From contig JALOOS010000005.1 of assembly GCA_025454275.1 (NCBI GenBank), positions 1 to 33,192 on the forward strand: a stretch of DNA of 33,192 nt. Direction: 5' to 3'. Shown one piece after another: positions 26,937 through 33,192 of this stretch. This DNA is from Desulfobacterales bacterium (GTDB lineage: Bacteria; Desulfobacterota; Desulfobacteria; Desulfobacterales; SpSt-501). The notes below the pieces were generated by a model that was given only the letters and a program-made list of their open reading frames with translations, did not search any database and was not told the origin of the DNA. Within the stretch, counting starts at the first letter, position 1; every line of letters begins with the position of its first letter. A program made the position numbers and the translations under genes.

Positions 26937-27167
26937 TCCGAGTCGGATCAGGTCCGGAGTATTCCGGCAGGCGGCGGGCCGGCAGGCATGAACTCGATCC
27001 TCAGCGGGTTCAAGTTGTTTTCAGGTCTGGATCGGGGATGGATTTCCCGCAGGCAAGTGCGGCCGCACGCCGGCTCCGTAGGGCATTATCCCATTTATGG
27101 GAGAAAGCATCAAGAAACAGGGACCGACGTTGCCACTGATCGACCCGGGTGTCGGGGAGCCGAAAGA

Positions 27168-27923
27168 TCAGGGCGGGCCGTAGAGCGTGCCCAGGAAATG
27201 GTTCATCTGGCGGTACCACCAGGGCCAGTCGTGGTTGACCTCCGGGCCCCAGAAATCGACCCAGGCGGGGGTTGCCTTTTCGCGGAAGATGCGATCCAGT
27301 GCGCGGGTGTCCTCGATCGCCTCCTCCTCCCAGGCCCCCTGGCCGACGCAGACGATGATCCGGCTCCGTCGATACCAGTCGAGAAACCACGGGTCGTTCA
27401 GACCCGGCAGATAGGAGAGGGGTGAATTGAAATAGACCGCGGGGAGATCCTCCGGCCCCAGGCCGAACTCGGGACGGTCGAGCCGGTAGAGGCCGGAGAG
27501 GGCGATGGTCCCCTCGCAGGCGTCGGGGTGCTTGAGGAAGAAATTCACCGCATGGTAGGCGCCCATGCTGCAGCCGGTCGCCATGGGCCGCTCCCCCGGC
27601 GTGGCGCAGTGCCCGCGGATGAAGGGCACGACCTCCTGAACGATGTATGCATCGTAGGCTTCGTGGCGGGCGTTGCGCTCGGCCGGCGGGATGCCGGTGT
27701 GGTACCAGGACTCGGCATCCACGCTGTCGACGGCATAGAGCTTGATCCGGCCGGCGTTGATGAAGGGGGCGATTTCGGCCACCATGCCCAGCCCCTCGAA
27801 GTCGAAGTACCGACCCCGGGAGCAGGGAAAGACGATGAAGGGCTTGCCCCAATGGCCGTAGACCTTGAGCTCCATCCCGCGGTTGAGATGCGGACTCCAC
27901 CAGTGGTGATGTTCGGTGTGCAT
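27168..27923 (-). CDS. Esterase-like alpha/beta hydrolase (COG4947-like)
   Basis: MHTEHHHWWSPHLNRGMELKVYGHWGKPFIVFPCSRGRYFDFEGLGMV...ATGCSMGAYHAVNFFLKHPD (GxSxG nucleophile elbow)...WGPEVNHDWPWWYRQMNHFL (catalytic His region). Confidence 0.85.
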   Translation of the reverse strand: MHTEHHHWWSPHLNRGMELKVYGHWGKPFIVFPCSRGRYFDFEGLGMVAEIAPFINAGRIKLYAVDSVDAESWYHTGIPPAERNARHEAYDAYIVQEVVPFIRGHCATPGERPMATGCSMGAYHAVNFFLKHPDACEGTIALSGLYRLDRPEFGLGPEDLPAVYFNSPLSYLPGLNDPWFLDWYRRSRIIVCVGQGAWEEEAIEDTRALDRIFREKATPAWVDFWGPEVNHDWPWWYRQMNHFLGTLYGPP

Positions 27924-27939
27924 GGCCCCTCGTTTCCGG

Positions 27940-29115
27940 TCAGCCGGAGCCGCCGGGTGCATGGATGAACCGGACCGCCTCGATCACCTCTGCGAGGTCC
28001 GGTGCGCGGAAGATGTAGCCGATGTCGCCGAGCGCACTGCGAAAGACCCCCGGAACGCTCTCCACCTGCAGGATCAGGTGGCCGAAGCGCGAGAGGACCT
28101 CCTGGTGAGCGTGCGCGTAGCGGGCGGTCTGCTTGCGGCTCGCGTAGCAGCAGTGGTAGCGCCGTTCGTAGTCGAGATCGGCGCGGCCGTGGACCAGGAG
28201 CTCGGCCCAGGCGCGGTAAATGTCGATGTCGGCCGTGTAGTTGAACATGTCGGTCGTGTAGCCGCCCGGGGGCCGCATGTTGACCTCGAGCGCCACGTAC
28301 TCGCCGGCTGCGGTGCGGAAGAACTCCATGTGAAAGAAGCGCTCGCGCACCTCGAAGTGGGCCAGGCAGCTCCGCCCGATCCGTTCGAGCTCTTCAGGGA
28401 TCTCCCTGAGGGAGTAGTAATAAATGTGGCGCTCCTCGTTTACGGTCTCCATGATGCCCTGGCTGAAGACATGGGCGGTCATGAAGAGCGGGTTTCCGGC
28501 CGCATCCGCCAACCCGTCGAAGGAGTGGATGGTGCCGGTGATGAACTCCTCCAGGATGTACGCCACCGGGGGGGGATTGCCGAAGAAGGCCTCGAGGTCG
28601 GCCGCGGAGTCGAGGCGGAAGGTGTCCAGCGCCCCCACTCCGATATCGGGCTTGGCGATCAGGGGGTAGCCGGTTTCGGCGGCGAGGGCGCGCCCCTCCT
28701 CGAGGGATCGGGCCACCCGGCCCCGGGCGACCCGCACCCCGGCCTGCCGGAAGCGCTCCTTCATCTTCGATTTGCGGCGAATCACGTCGATGCCCGCCCG
28801 GCGCACGCCGGGTATGTTGAAGTCGTCCCGGATCCGGGCCTCGGTGCCGAGCCAGTACTCATTCAGGGAGTCGAAGCGGTCGATTTTCCCGTAGCGGTGG
28901 GTGAAGTAACCGCAGGCCCGGATGAGGGCATCGTCATCGTGCATGTCGTCGACGCGGTAGTACTCGGTCAGCGCCGCGCGCAGCTCCCCGGGCAGGCTCT
29001 CGCAGGGCGCATCGCCGATGCCGAGCGCATTGGCCCCCGCCTGCCGGATCCGGGCCCAGAAGCGCCGGTAGTGCGGCGGAAAGTGGGGCGAGAGCAGCAC
29101 GATGTTGCGGTTCAT
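27940..29115 (-). CDS. ATP-grasp carboxylate-amine ligase-like protein (paralogue of next gene)
   Basis: GYPLIAKPDIGVGALDTFRL...YILEEFITGTIHSFDGLAD...FFHMEFFRTAAGEYVALEVNMRPPGGYTTDMFNYT. Confidence 0.88.
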   Translation of the reverse strand: MNRNIVLLSPHFPPHYRRFWARIRQAGANALGIGDAPCESLPGELRAALTEYYRVDDMHDDDALIRACGYFTHRYGKIDRFDSLNEYWLGTEARIRDDFNIPGVRRAGIDVIRRKSKMKERFRQAGVRVARGRVARSLEEGRALAAETGYPLIAKPDIGVGALDTFRLDSAADLEAFFGNPPPVAYILEEFITGTIHSFDGLADAAGNPLFMTAHVFSQGIMETVNEERHIYYYSLREIPEELERIGRSCLAHFEVRERFFHMEFFRTAAGEYVALEVNMRPPGGYTTDMFNYTADIDIYRAWAELLVHGRADLDYERRYHCCYASRKQTARYAHAHQEVLSRFGHLILQVESVPGVFRSALGDIGYIFRAPDLAEVIEAVRFIHAPGGSG

Positions 29116-30284
29116 GTCGCCGGGCCTGTCTGCCGCAGGGCGGCGGCGATGGCGGGGATCTCGGATTCGTTGGGGGTGCGGAAGAGGTAGCGCACCCGGC
29201 CCATGATGTCCTGGTAGACCGCCGGGTTTTCGGCCGTCTCCACGAGCAGCGGCCCGTAGCGGGCGAGGATCTCCTCGTGGGAGAGGGTGTAAGCCTTATC
29301 GGTGCGGCCGATGTAGGCGACGGCGTATTTCTTCTCGCGCGGCAGCTCGACGGGCTTCCCCGTCACCATGCAGGCCCAGGCGCGGTAGAGGTCCCCGTCC
29401 ACGCTGAAGTTCATCATGTCCAGGATGGCTCCGCCGGGCGGGCGGCTGTTGATCTCCATGGGGAGATAGACGCCCCCGCGCTCGAAGAACTCGAAGTGGA
29501 AGAACTTGCGGCGGATGCCGAACGCGGCGACCAGGGCGGCGCCGATCGCGGGCAGCGCCTCCGGAATGCGGCGGCTGACATAGAAGTAAGGGTCCGTGCC
29601 GCGGGTGTATTCGATCAGCCCCTCGCCGTAGACCAGCGTGTTGCCGAAAAGGATCCGCCCCTGCCGGTCGGTGAGCCCGTCGTAAGTGACGATCGGGGCG
29701 TCGATGAACTCCTCCAGGAGATAGCCGGCGGGGAGCTCCGGGAACACCGTGCGCAGCGCCTCCGGGCTCTCGACCCGGTGGGTGCCGCCGGCGCCCACCC
29801 CCTCGTCCGGCTTGAGGATCACCGGGTAGCCGACCTCCGCGGCGAGGCGCAGGGCGTCGTCCAGCTCGGCCACCGGCCCGCCGCGGGCCGCGGGCAGGCC
29901 GAGGCTGCGGAAAACCTGCTTCATGAGCGATTTTTTCTTGATCGTCTCGGTTTCCTGGAGCGAGAGCCCGGGCACGCCGAAACGCTCGTTGAGGATCGCC
30001 TCCAGCCGCAGCCAGGTTTCGTTGTGCGATTCCACGAGGTCGAAGGTGCCCTCGTGTCCCAGGGCGTGCTTCGCCTCCAGCAGCTCTTCGACGGCGCGCA
30101 CCGCGCGCCGCCAGTTTTTGAGTTCGGTGCGCACATACCAGCGGATCGCGGCCCGCAGATCGGGGGCCATGGAGAAGAACTCGGTCTCCCCGATGGCCCA
30201 CACCCGTGCTCCCAGGGCGTCCGCCTGACGGATGAAGTGGGTGTAGTTGGGCGGGAACTCGGGTGAAATGTAGAGAATGTCCAT
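29112..30284 (-). CDS. ATP-grasp carboxylate-amine ligase-like protein
   Basis: GYPVILKPDEGVGAGGTHRV...YLLEEFIDAPIVTYDGLTD...FFHFEFFERGGVYLPMEINSRPPGGAILDMMNFS; start at internal ATG 30284; 4-nt ATGA overlap with the downstream gene. Confidence 0.88.
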   Translation of the reverse strand: MDILYISPEFPPNYTHFIRQADALGARVWAIGETEFFSMAPDLRAAIRWYVRTELKNWRRAVRAVEELLEAKHALGHEGTFDLVESHNETWLRLEAILNERFGVPGLSLQETETIKKKSLMKQVFRSLGLPAARGGPVAELDDALRLAAEVGYPVILKPDEGVGAGGTHRVESPEALRTVFPELPAGYLLEEFIDAPIVTYDGLTDRQGRILFGNTLVYGEGLIEYTRGTDPYFYVSRRIPEALPAIGAALVAAFGIRRKFFHFEFFERGGVYLPMEINSRPPGGAILDMMNFSVDGDLYRAWACMVTGKPVELPREKKYAVAYIGRTDKAYTLSHEEILARYGPLLVETAENPAVYQDIMGRVRYLFRTPNESEIPAIAAALRQTGPAT

Positions 30285-30374
30285 GGCCTCGTCTCCGGCC
30301 GGGTCGCACGCATCGGCCTCACCGGGCGATTCTAAGACAGGCGCAGGAGGGGTCAAGCCCGGCGGCGGCGATTC

Positions 30375-32249
30375 TCAGGCGAGTTCGTCGAAACGGCAGG
30401 TGAGGGAGACCCCTTCCCCGTCGAAGGCGCTCTTCACCTTGTAGGGCAGGGTCTTGAAGAGCCGGATCATGGCCTGGTTGCCCGGGGTGGTGTAGGCGAT
30501 CAGGCCGAAGACCCCGTTTTCACGCGCCGCATCGGCCAGTTTGCGCAGGATGCGGCGCGCGATGCCCTTGCCCTGGTAGTTTTTGTTGACCGAGAAGGCC
30601 ACCTCGGCCATGTTCGTCCTGGGCAGGAGCATGCACTCGCCGACCGCCACCACGCGGCCGAAGCCGAATTCACCCACCAGGGCGAGCAGGGTCAGGTCCT
30701 TGACGTAGTCGATCTGGGAGCGGGACTCGACCTCCGTGCGCGGGAAGCTGGTCTTCTCGTGCATGAACCGCGAAAAGATATCGTCCTTGTCCAGGCTGTA
30801 GAAGTGCTCCTGGATCCGGCGCTCATCGACCGGCTTGGCGGGCCGGATGGTGACTTCCTCCCCCTCGACCGCCATGGTCTCTTCGAGCTTCACCGGGTAG
30901 ATGCCGCGCACCGCCTCGCCCAGGGTGCGCTCCGTGCCGATCAGGCCGAGCTCCTTGGCGTCGGCGAAGAGGCGCTCGCGGAAATCGGGGTGGGCGATGC
31001 TGATCATGCCCATCACCCGCTCCTGCAGGCTTTTCCCGAAGAGGTTGAAGATCCCGTATTCGGTGGCCACGTAGTGGACATCCGCGCGCGGCACGGCCAC
31101 GTTGGTGTTGTTGAGGAGCGGTACGATGGTGCTGGTTCGTCCGTCGTCCGCGGTCGAGAAGAGCATGATGATCGATTTGCCGCCGGGCGAGCGCTTGGCG
31201 CCCCGCACGAAGTCGACGATGCCGGAGGTCCCCGCGAAGAAGGTCAGGGCCGAGGCCTCCACCTCCACCTGGCCGGTCAGGTCCATGGTGCGGGCGACAT
31301 TCATGGAGACCATGCGGTGATGGCGCGAAATGATGAACGGGTCGTTGACGTAGTCGGAGGGGTGGAAGTCGACCGCCGGGTTGTTGTCCAGGAAGTCATA
31401 CAGGTTGCGGGAGCCGATCGCGGCCGAGGCGACGATCTTGCCCTCGTTGAAACCTTTCAAACGGTTCGTGATCACGCCCTGGGAGTAAAGGTGCATGATG
31501 TCGTCGGTGATGAACTGGGAGTGCACCCCCAGATCGTTTTTTTCGCTCAAGGCCTGGATGGTCGCCTGGGAGGCGGCGTCCAGGCCGATCTGCAGGGTCG
31601 AACCGTCTTCGATCAGCCTCGCGATCAGCGTGCCGATGCGCGCGGCGGTTTCCGAGGCCGAGCCCGGGGGGACGGTCATGAGATCCTCGTCGTGCTCGAC
31701 GATCAGATCCACGTCGTTGACGTGGATGAAACTCTGGCCGAGCACCCGCGGCATGTTCGAGTTCACCTGGGCGATGAGCAGGTCTGCGGAGAGGGCCGCG
31801 GCCCGGGTCACGTCGACCGAGATGCCGAGGCTCATCCAGCCGAAATCGTCGGGCGGCGAGGTCTGAACGAGCGCCACGTGGATCGGCAGCTTCTGGGAGG
31901 TGAAGAGGTCCGGGACCTCGGACATGTTCATCGGGGTGATGAAGCGCTTGTGACGGGCGATCGACTCGGCGTTGCTGGCGCCGAGATAGATGGTGCGGAT
32001 GTTCAGGGCGAAATCCTGGGTCTGGTCGGCGAGCGAGGAGAGGGCGGCGGTCTCCCGGCTCATCAGCCGCACCACCTCGAGCCCGCTCAGCTTCCCGGCG
32101 GACTCGAAAAGCGCCTGGACCAGGGCCTGGGGCTGGCCGCAGGCCGAACCGATGAAAACGCGCTGGCCGGGCCGGATCAGCCGCATGGCCTCGTCGGCGC
32201 GGCGGCGCTTTTCGAGATAGGCATCCGCCCAGTAGGTGGATTTCGGCAC
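30375..32249 (-). CDS. Acetyl-CoA hydrolase/4-hydroxybutyrate-type CoA-transferase fused to C-terminal GNAT domain
   Basis: GTG start 32249 with SD GGAGAAG; VPKSTYWADAYLEKRRRADEAMRLIRPGQRVFIGSACGQPQALV...STADDGRTSTIVPLLNNTNVAVPRADVHYVATEYGIFNLFGKSLQER; GNAT VTIRPAKPVDERRIQEHFYSL...EVAFSVNKNYQGKGIARRILRKL. Confidence 0.9.
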   Translation of the reverse strand: MPKSTYWADAYLEKRRRADEAMRLIRPGQRVFIGSACGQPQALVQALFESAGKLSGLEVVRLMSRETAALSSLADQTQDFALNIRTIYLGASNAESIARHKRFITPMNMSEVPDLFTSQKLPIHVALVQTSPPDDFGWMSLGISVDVTRAAALSADLLIAQVNSNMPRVLGQSFIHVNDVDLIVEHDEDLMTVPPGSASETAARIGTLIARLIEDGSTLQIGLDAASQATIQALSEKNDLGVHSQFITDDIMHLYSQGVITNRLKGFNEGKIVASAAIGSRNLYDFLDNNPAVDFHPSDYVNDPFIISRHHRMVSMNVARTMDLTGQVEVEASALTFFAGTSGIVDFVRGAKRSPGGKSIIMLFSTADDGRTSTIVPLLNNTNVAVPRADVHYVATEYGIFNLFGKSLQERVMGMISIAHPDFRERLFADAKELGLIGTERTLGEAVRGIYPVKLEETMAVEGEEVTIRPAKPVDERRIQEHFYSLDKDDIFSRFMHEKTSFPRTEVESRSQIDYVKDLTLLALVGEFGFGRVVAVGECMLLPRTNMAEVAFSVNKNYQGKGIARRILRKLADAARENGVFGLIAYTTPGNQAMIRLFKTLPYKVKSAFDGEGVSLTCRFDELA

Positions 32250-32269
32250 GGCTCTTCTCCCGGTACGGT

Positions 32270-33192
32270 TTAAAATGGGGTAGGGGGGGTGCCGGTGTGC
32301 TGGATATCGGCCAGCAGGCGGCGGCACTGCTCGAAGGAGAGCCGGCGGACGAAGCCGATGGTCTCGATTTCGTTGCGGGTATGCGGATAGTCGCCCGGGG
32401 CGGGCACCATCTCCTCTTTGGCGAGCAGTTTGTTGTAAACCAGGGCGGCGGCGGCCAGATGGTCGTCGTGGAGGCTGCCCGGCCGCGCGGGGCAAAAAAG
32501 GTAGCGCAAAGTGAGGAGGTCGCCGGGGCCGAAGAGGTGAGCTCGCCCCGCATGGGTTCGATACACCGGTTCCAGGACGAAGCAGCGTGTCAGCCGGCTT
32601 CGCCCCGCAAGCCGCCGGCGCAGCTCCCTCCAGAGGGCCTGGTGGATCTCACCGGCTTCAATCAGCGTGCTCGTGTGCCCCGGAACGACCGCGGCAATGG
32701 CCGTTGCCCGGAGATCGTCCCGCAGCCGGAAGCGGTCGGCATCGGCCCGAGCGAAGCGTTTGACCGCCTCCAGGGTCTCGCCGAAGCTGCCTTCTGCGGC
32801 CGCTTCATAGAATTCCAGCAAACGGCCGGTGGCCACCCGCTCGGCGGCATAGACCGGGGCGAGGTCCGGATCGGCCGCCACGGCGGCGGGGGGCTCCCCG
32901 TCGGCCAGGCGCTCGTGGATCGCGACCAGCGCCTCCAGGAAGGGCTCCACCTGGAAGATGCGATGGCCCCGGCGGTGGAGGTCCCGGAGGAGACCGCACA
33001 GGCCGCGGCTGTATTCGGGATACTCCAGGTCGAGGGGCAGCAGGTAGTCTTCCACCGCAAGCTCCCCTTCAAGCATCGATGCCAGCCGCGGGTCCGGCGG
33101 CTCCTCCAGGACGATGGCCTCATGGCCGGAGGCGATCTCCGCCCAGAGGGGCAGGGTCTCGGGCCGGTGGGTCGAAAAGGCGACGGTGACGT
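32270..33192 (-). CDS. Uncharacterised protein (N-terminus cut by window edge)
   Basis: Open minus frame continues past the track's Met at 33076 to the edge (VTVAFSTHRPETLPLWAEIASGHEAIVLEEPPDPRLASMLEGELAVEDYLLPLDLEYPEYSRGLCGLLRDLHRRGHRIFQVEPFLEAL...); stop TAA at 32272-32270. Confidence 0.75.
   Translation of the reverse strand, partial: VTVAFSTHRPETLPLWAEIASGHEAIVLEEPPDPRLASMLEGELAVEDYLLPLDLEYPEYSRGLCGLLRDLHRRGHRIFQVEPFLEALVAIHERLADGEPPAAVAADPDLAPVYAAERVATGRLLEFYEAAAEGSFGETLEAVKRFARADADRFRLRDDLRATAIAAVVPGHTSTLIEAGEIHQALWRELRRRLAGRSRLTRCFVLEPVYRTHAGRAHLFGPGDLLTLRYLFCPARPGSLHDDHLAAAALVYNKLLAKEEMVPAPGDYPHTRNEIETIGFVRRLSFEQCRRLLADIQHTGTPPTPF

Follow-up and report, generated by a model that had tools for sequence, protein, structure and literature searches.

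A conserved unit of two paralogous ATP-grasp ligases and a serine hydrolase in Desulfobacterales, with a ligase-hydrolase pair found across bacterial phyla

Introduction

The chemistry of the two enzyme classes treated here, L-amino-acid ligases and PF00756 hydrolases, is already known. The L-amino-acid ligases RizA, BL00235, and BacD are not known to have an obligate esterase partner. In RizA, the pocket for the C-terminal substrate, namely the amine acceptor, comprises T81, K83, S84, S156, and A158 (PMC9321006). Two ATP-grasp ligases act in the biosynthesis of phosphonoalamides: one produces a dipeptide and the second extends it to a tripeptide (PMC11867202). Graspetide loci often contain a pair of ATP-grasps, and alpha/beta hydrolases or Tiki/TraB proteins are sometimes encoded there as well (PMC8939145).

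Here, we analysed a window of 33,192 nucleotides, which is the entire contig C150 of a 2.4-Mb metagenome-assembled genome (MAG; 80% complete) of a Desulfobacterales bacterium. Among named relatives, the nearest is a MAG of the Desulfobacterales, with 82% identity in ag2. Five neighbouring genes were investigated and are referred to as unk, coat (CoA-transferase-GNAT), ag1 and ag2 (ATP-grasp ligases), and est (hydrolase). The phosphonoalamide cluster, with PnaB and PnaC, is specialised and contains phosphonate genes, whereas ag2-est is a gene pair that crosses phyla; PEP mutase (TIGR02320) had no match in the window's genome, which is approximately 80% complete. No description of an ag2-est module was found in the searchable literature, a scope outside which the 2009 amidoligase survey (Iyer et al.) lay, and as far as that literature shows, both the pan-phylum pairing of ag2 with est and the second ligase paralogue are undescribed. 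We propose, with a probability of roughly 0.55, that ag1-ag2-est is a small-molecule ligation unit in which the two ligases would form amides successively and the hydrolase would act on the same metabolite.

Results

Gene layout and predicted promoters

The five genes lie on one strand (Table 1). Their order and spacings agreed with the coordinates given in a preliminary description of this DNA, and its domain calls were borne out by Pfam. The spacing is 20 nt between unk and coat, 90 nt between coat and ag1, and 16 nt between ag2 and est, and ag1 and ag2 share an ATGA overlap at 29115-29112. The start codon of coat is GTG, after GGGAGAAG. A mechanical ORF caller yielded longer starts; conservation favours the starts used here.

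Table 1 Positions of the five genes and of two predicted promoter sites in the window.
Feature	Description	Position	Strand	Evidence and remarks
unk	Conserved protein, independent neighbour	32270..33192, runs past contig end	-	No match among the Pfam and NCBIfam models searched
coat	CoA-transferase fused to GNAT, 624 aa	30375..32249	-	PF13336, PF02550, PF00583
ag1	ATP-grasp ligase paralogue 1, L-amino-acid-ligase-like, 390 aa	29112..30284	-	PF13535, PF02786
ag2	ATP-grasp ligase paralogue 2, the central gene of the widespread module, 391 aa	27940..29115	-	PF13535
est	Cytosolic serine hydrolase, 251 aa	27168..27923	-	PF00756
Sigma70-like promoter (predicted)	TTGACC-16-TAGAAT	30329..30356	-	Consensus scan, 10/12; in the coat-ag1 gap
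Second promoter-like site (predicted)		27085..27113	-	9/12 with TG; downstream of est, before a histidine kinase gene

The preliminary description regarded the five genes as one operon. The data do not support this: a sigma70-like site was predicted within the coat-ag1 gap, and only ag1, ag2, and est stay together outside the genus; a five-gene operon was rejected on the neighbourhood surveys. The consensus scan covered 6.3 kb, in which approximately 0.6 sites of 10/12 quality would be expected by chance, and a consensus match alone does not demonstrate promoter function. The second promoter-like site suggests that the unit may terminate at est, and both predicted sites are consistent with a three-gene unit in this genome. 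In three congeners the coat-ag1 gap is just 8-9 nt; therefore, read-through from coat is likely in those.

Conservation of ag1-ag2-est

ag1-ag2-est is a real, widely conserved unit. The three genes were found in this order at at least 16 loci or genomes of the order besides the window, members of the genus counted. The neighbourhood survey that the preliminary description had proposed as a check showed conserved co-localisation for ag1, ag2, and est and none for coat and unk. In a sample of 292 genomes from the order, 49 carried ATP-grasps of the family and 45 carried est: both occurred in 44 genomes, an ATP-grasp alone in five, est alone in one, and neither in 242 (Fisher p ~2e-45, uncorrected for relatedness). 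In total, 18 families are represented among the pairs; of the 44 est matches, the one in G161 is only a 53-residue fragment. In 39 genomes est adjoins a ligase, the median gap being approximately 36 nt. Since est alone was seen in one of the 292 genomes, it practically never occurs without a ligase.

At the level of the phylum, ag2 was rare (17 of 395 genomes). Sixteen ag2-type loci were fetched, and a close est was located directly downstream in ten, a distant PF00756-type hydrolase adjoined in five, and neither was present in one; the PF00756 assignment was confirmed directly in two of the five distant hydrolases, and the others cluster with them by BLAST. A wider scan using one genome per species yielded at least 576 ag2 relatives, from which 80 named loci were kept. 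est was immediately downstream of ag2 in 62 of these 80 loci, elsewhere nearby in three, and absent in 13, and two loci left no room for it. The hosts include Desulfobacterota, Chloroflexota, Deinococcota (Calidithermus), Bacteroidota, Nitrospirota, and Muiribacteriota, and isolates such as Desulfosarcina widdelii (L147) and Calidithermus roseus (L182) carry the ag2-est pair. Without a close est, ag2 was found, for example, in Heliorestis and in a Wallbacteria MAG. Annotated plasmid records contributed two further relatives: a clostridial one in Peptoclostridium acidaminophilum, with an ATP-grasp followed by an alpha/beta hydrolase, and a rhizobial one in Pararhizobium, with an ATP-grasp followed by a hypothetical protein of approximately 251 aa.

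The unit also occurs in part. ag1 and est were found without ag2 at two loci (L093 and L096), and ag1 was found with neither ag2 nor est nearby at two others (L097 and L103); therefore, the two ligation steps are not obligatorily coupled. Given these ag1-est loci and the ag2-est loci without ag1 in most bacteria, est is seen to partner one ligase or the other, as would be expected of a hydrolase recognising a common product type.

The two ATP-grasp ligases

ag1 and ag2 are paralogues with 38% identity and formed two clades with 100% local support in a quick tree. ag2 scored 32.0 bits against PF13535 (cut-off 27) and ag1 scored 27.0 bits, equal to the cut-off; PF02786 was above its cut-off in ag1. 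The AlphaFold2 model of ag2, which was built with 31 relatives, had a pLDDT of 92.2. Its top six PDB matches were RizA, BL00235 (3vot), and BacD/YwfE (3vmm and 3wnz), the best being RizA (4wd3, E 6e-24), and a profile-sequence search also returned RizA as the best match (E 1.5e-20). With an identity to these characterised ligases of only about 15-21%, the amide is a predicted product. Scores against the model for the alanine-anticapsin ligase BacD (NF053745) were 22.2 and 14.9 bits, below the cut-off of 850. A curated family was sought for both the ligases and the esterase, and none of the window proteins reached an NCBIfam cut-off.

No variation was seen in ag2 at K155, E189, H262, E264, E277, and R281, and ag1, aligned from 24 genomes, has the corresponding residues. 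The two paralogues have 54 near-invariant positions in common, including the ATP/metal motifs K155, H262-x-E264, and E277-x-N279-x-R281-PPGG. Aligned with RizA, ag2 has matching H-x-E, E, and R residues in the metal and catalytic loops, whereas its N279 aligns with Ala. Fixed differences between ag1 and ag2 were found at six positions, two of which, T287/I287 and F291/M291, are just behind the catalytic loop. Shared catalytic positions combined with six fixed differences are as expected for enzymes that catalyse the same reaction on different substrates. In the alignment with RizA, the acceptor-pocket residues T81, K83, S84, S156, and A158 correspond to N85, Y87, W88, V160, and A162 of ag2. 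Since W88 and V160 are common to ag1 and ag2 and positions 287 and 291 differ, the sequences suggest that the two ligases may use a similar acceptor and a different donor acid.

True domain fusions of ag2 were also sought; the three candidates were discarded, as their N-terminal extensions resemble read-through of an open frame and not convincing domains.

The hydrolase

est scored 36.7 bits against PF00756 (cut-off 22), and its G-x-S119-M-G motif and H231 were invariant. D205 was also invariant and is a candidate for the acid of a Ser-Asp-His triad. No recognisable signal peptide was present in est. By Pfam score and Ser/His motifs, est resembles the PF00756 esterases, i.e., S-formylglutathione hydrolase/esterase D, feruloyl esterase, and short-chain PHA depolymerase; we take COG4947 to be the COG for such esterases. 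It differs from them in reaching no curated subfamily cut-off, in lacking a recognisable secretion signal, and in occurring with ATP-grasps in all but one of the est-bearing genomes of the order sample. Matches to the PHA depolymerase and S-formylglutathione hydrolase models were weak (13.2 bits against TIGR02821, S-formylglutathione hydrolase, which missed the cut-off of 281.7), and the relatives of est likewise gave only weak subfamily matches.

Instead of catalysing a biosynthetic step, est may be a detoxifying or clean-up enzyme that would shield the cell from side products of a promiscuous ligase or recycle them. That est is almost never without a ligase and some ligases are without est accords with such a role, as does a Sporomusaceae locus (L163, 5040-9161) in which two tandem ATP-grasps of the family are flanked by two different PF00756-type hydrolases on opposite strands. 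However, a biosynthetic step predicts an equally tight and wide pairing, and we regard the clean-up role as unlikely.

The neighbouring genes coat and unk

Of 194 genomes of the order, 172 carry coat, usually in multiple copies (e.g., L244-L250), and it was attached to ag1 only in the genus of the window. All six other congeners examined have the arrangement coat-ag1-ag2(-est) as far as their contigs extend. Outside the genus, for example in families f111, f114, f132, f133, and f157, coat was absent beside ag1-ag2-est. The window copy of coat matched no curated subfamily, its score against butyryl-CoA:acetate CoA-transferase (TIGR03948) being 245.7 bits, below the cut-off of 674.8. In genome G398, coat is split across two frames (L081, 6226-7999), probably by a frameshift or an assembly error. 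As coat is near-universal in the order and multi-copy, we regard it as a widespread gene that lies at this place by chance in a single genus, and it is probably a genus-level neighbour outside the pathway.

The protein called unknown in the preliminary description is encoded on the strand given there, and its gene is truncated by the contig end. The last 99 bases of the window (33094-33192) are identical to a stretch of contig C239 (L231, 4464-4562), which continues unk; the joined protein is 311 aa, with its start supplied by C239. Upstream of unk on C239 are metK, a DsbD-like gene, and a D-Ala-D-Ala carboxypeptidase gene, named by sequence resemblance only. Of 243 genomes of the order, 43 carry a member of the unk family (relatives L202-L230), and the neighbourhood survey linked it to ag1-ag2-est only here and in G398. 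The model of unk was confident (pLDDT 93.9); a comparison of its fold with the PDB gave nothing below E 0.1, and a weak likeness to HopBA1 (probability 0.82, E 0.37) was observed. The fold is possibly EreA/Tiki-like. unk is an independent neighbour and not a member of the pathway.

These distributions bear on the acyl-CoA and acyl-transfer part of the preliminary description. A five-gene acyl-peptide pathway, in which coat would supply and transfer an acyl group, the ligases would extend it, and the esterase would remove it, accords with the common strand, with the short gaps throughout, and with the position of coat directly before ag1 in six of six congeners, three of which have a gap of just 8-9 nt there. 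Nevertheless, the frequency of coat is far from that of the ligases (49 of 292 genomes), the two are joined in a single genus, unk is linked in just one other genome, and a promoter-like site lies within the 90-nt gap. We therefore consider this pathway very unlikely, and the acyl-transfer part lacks support.

Variant loci

In the broad set, the recurrent neighbours of ag2-est were few and lineage-specific, and hence no substrate follows from them. Three genomes belonging to one genus have an M1 aminopeptidase gene immediately upstream of ag2-est (L022, 5129-9786; L023, 5063-9739; L024, 5381-10120). The TspO-like, ATP-grasp, and hydrolase genes of Peptoclostridium acidaminophilum lie between two DAHP synthase genes (L251, 5776-11043). 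Some ag2 relatives have no nearby hydrolase and adjoin a methyltransferase gene instead, which speaks against the proposed unit; a SAM methyltransferase was encoded directly before such esterase-less relatives at L031 (7286-9645), L117 (7189-9457), L119, L174, and L254 (5872-9173). In Massilia, a class III aminotransferase and a methyltransferase are encoded upstream of the ag2 relative. The methyltransferase-linked relatives possibly represent a second pathway with the same ligase family. Hints from distant relatives thus diverge among polyamine genes, a methyltransferase, and an aminotransferase with a methyltransferase.

Agmatine deiminase and N-carbamoylputrescine amidase are encoded directly upstream of a distant ag2-esterase pair on the same strand at L037 (6900-10810) and L036 (7236-11327), and nearby at L034 and L035. 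In a pathway of polyamine conjugation, putrescine or a related amine would be linked to an amino acid by the ligases, and the hydrolase would recycle the conjugate. The polyamine genes were confined to two families whose ag2 is distant (44-48% identity), they did not recur beside close relatives, and agmatine deiminase was not found in the window's genome (80% complete), all of which makes polyamine conjugation quite improbable as the function of this unit.

In a graspetide-like locus, the ATP-grasps would form cross-links between side chains of a precursor peptide made by the ribosome, and the hydrolase would be a maturation enzyme. This reading shares with described graspetide loci the two ATP-grasps and the alpha/beta hydrolase, but we give it hardly any credence, as spacings of 90, -4, and 16 nt are too tight for a precursor gene inside the unit, the best fold match is an L-amino-acid ligase, the ATP-grasps are of a different subfamily, and no graspetide-ligase model of Pfam or NCBIfam was matched.

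Discussion

Of the readings considered, we favour the small-molecule ligation unit, which is directly supported by the conservation, order, and co-occurrence of ag1, ag2, and est and by the fold class and intact catalytic motifs. The preliminary description had proposed two amide-bond-forming ligases with a dedicated serine hydrolase, and gene order, near-perfect co-occurrence, and the L-amino-acid-ligase fold upheld this. Its suggestion of an amino-acid-conjugate pathway that includes a dedicated hydrolase is, for the same reasons, a fair reading once the acyl-CoA part is set aside.

In the proposed unit, each ATP-grasp would use ATP to activate the carboxylate of an amino-acid-like substrate as an acyl phosphate and would then join it to an amine. 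Two diverged paralogues would most simply catalyse two successive steps, and the resulting conjugate would be tripeptide-like or doubly capped; in most other bacteria, which have one ligase, there would be one step. By analogy with phosphonoalamide biosynthesis, two successive ligations are plausible. est may remove an ester or acyl group from the same metabolite or may turn over the conjugate. We infer the successive steps, the shared metabolite, and the role of the hydrolase.

A broader model can be put forward tentatively, as a possibility to which we assign somewhat less than even odds: the pan-phylum ATP-grasp and its near-obligate hydrolase would make and trim one conserved metabolite, and the second paralogue would elaborate it in the order to which the window's genome belongs. 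The side-by-side pair across phyla and its near-perfect co-occurrence in one order signal a single conserved reaction sequence, whose product has apparently been named by nobody. Since the pair is small, soluble, and easily expressed, the substrate question is directly testable. In addition, L-amino-acid ligases are useful biocatalysts, and the branch of ag1 and ag2 is distant from the characterised ones. If the broader model is true, ag2 and est would produce a metabolite of general occurrence in many bacteria, most of them anaerobes.
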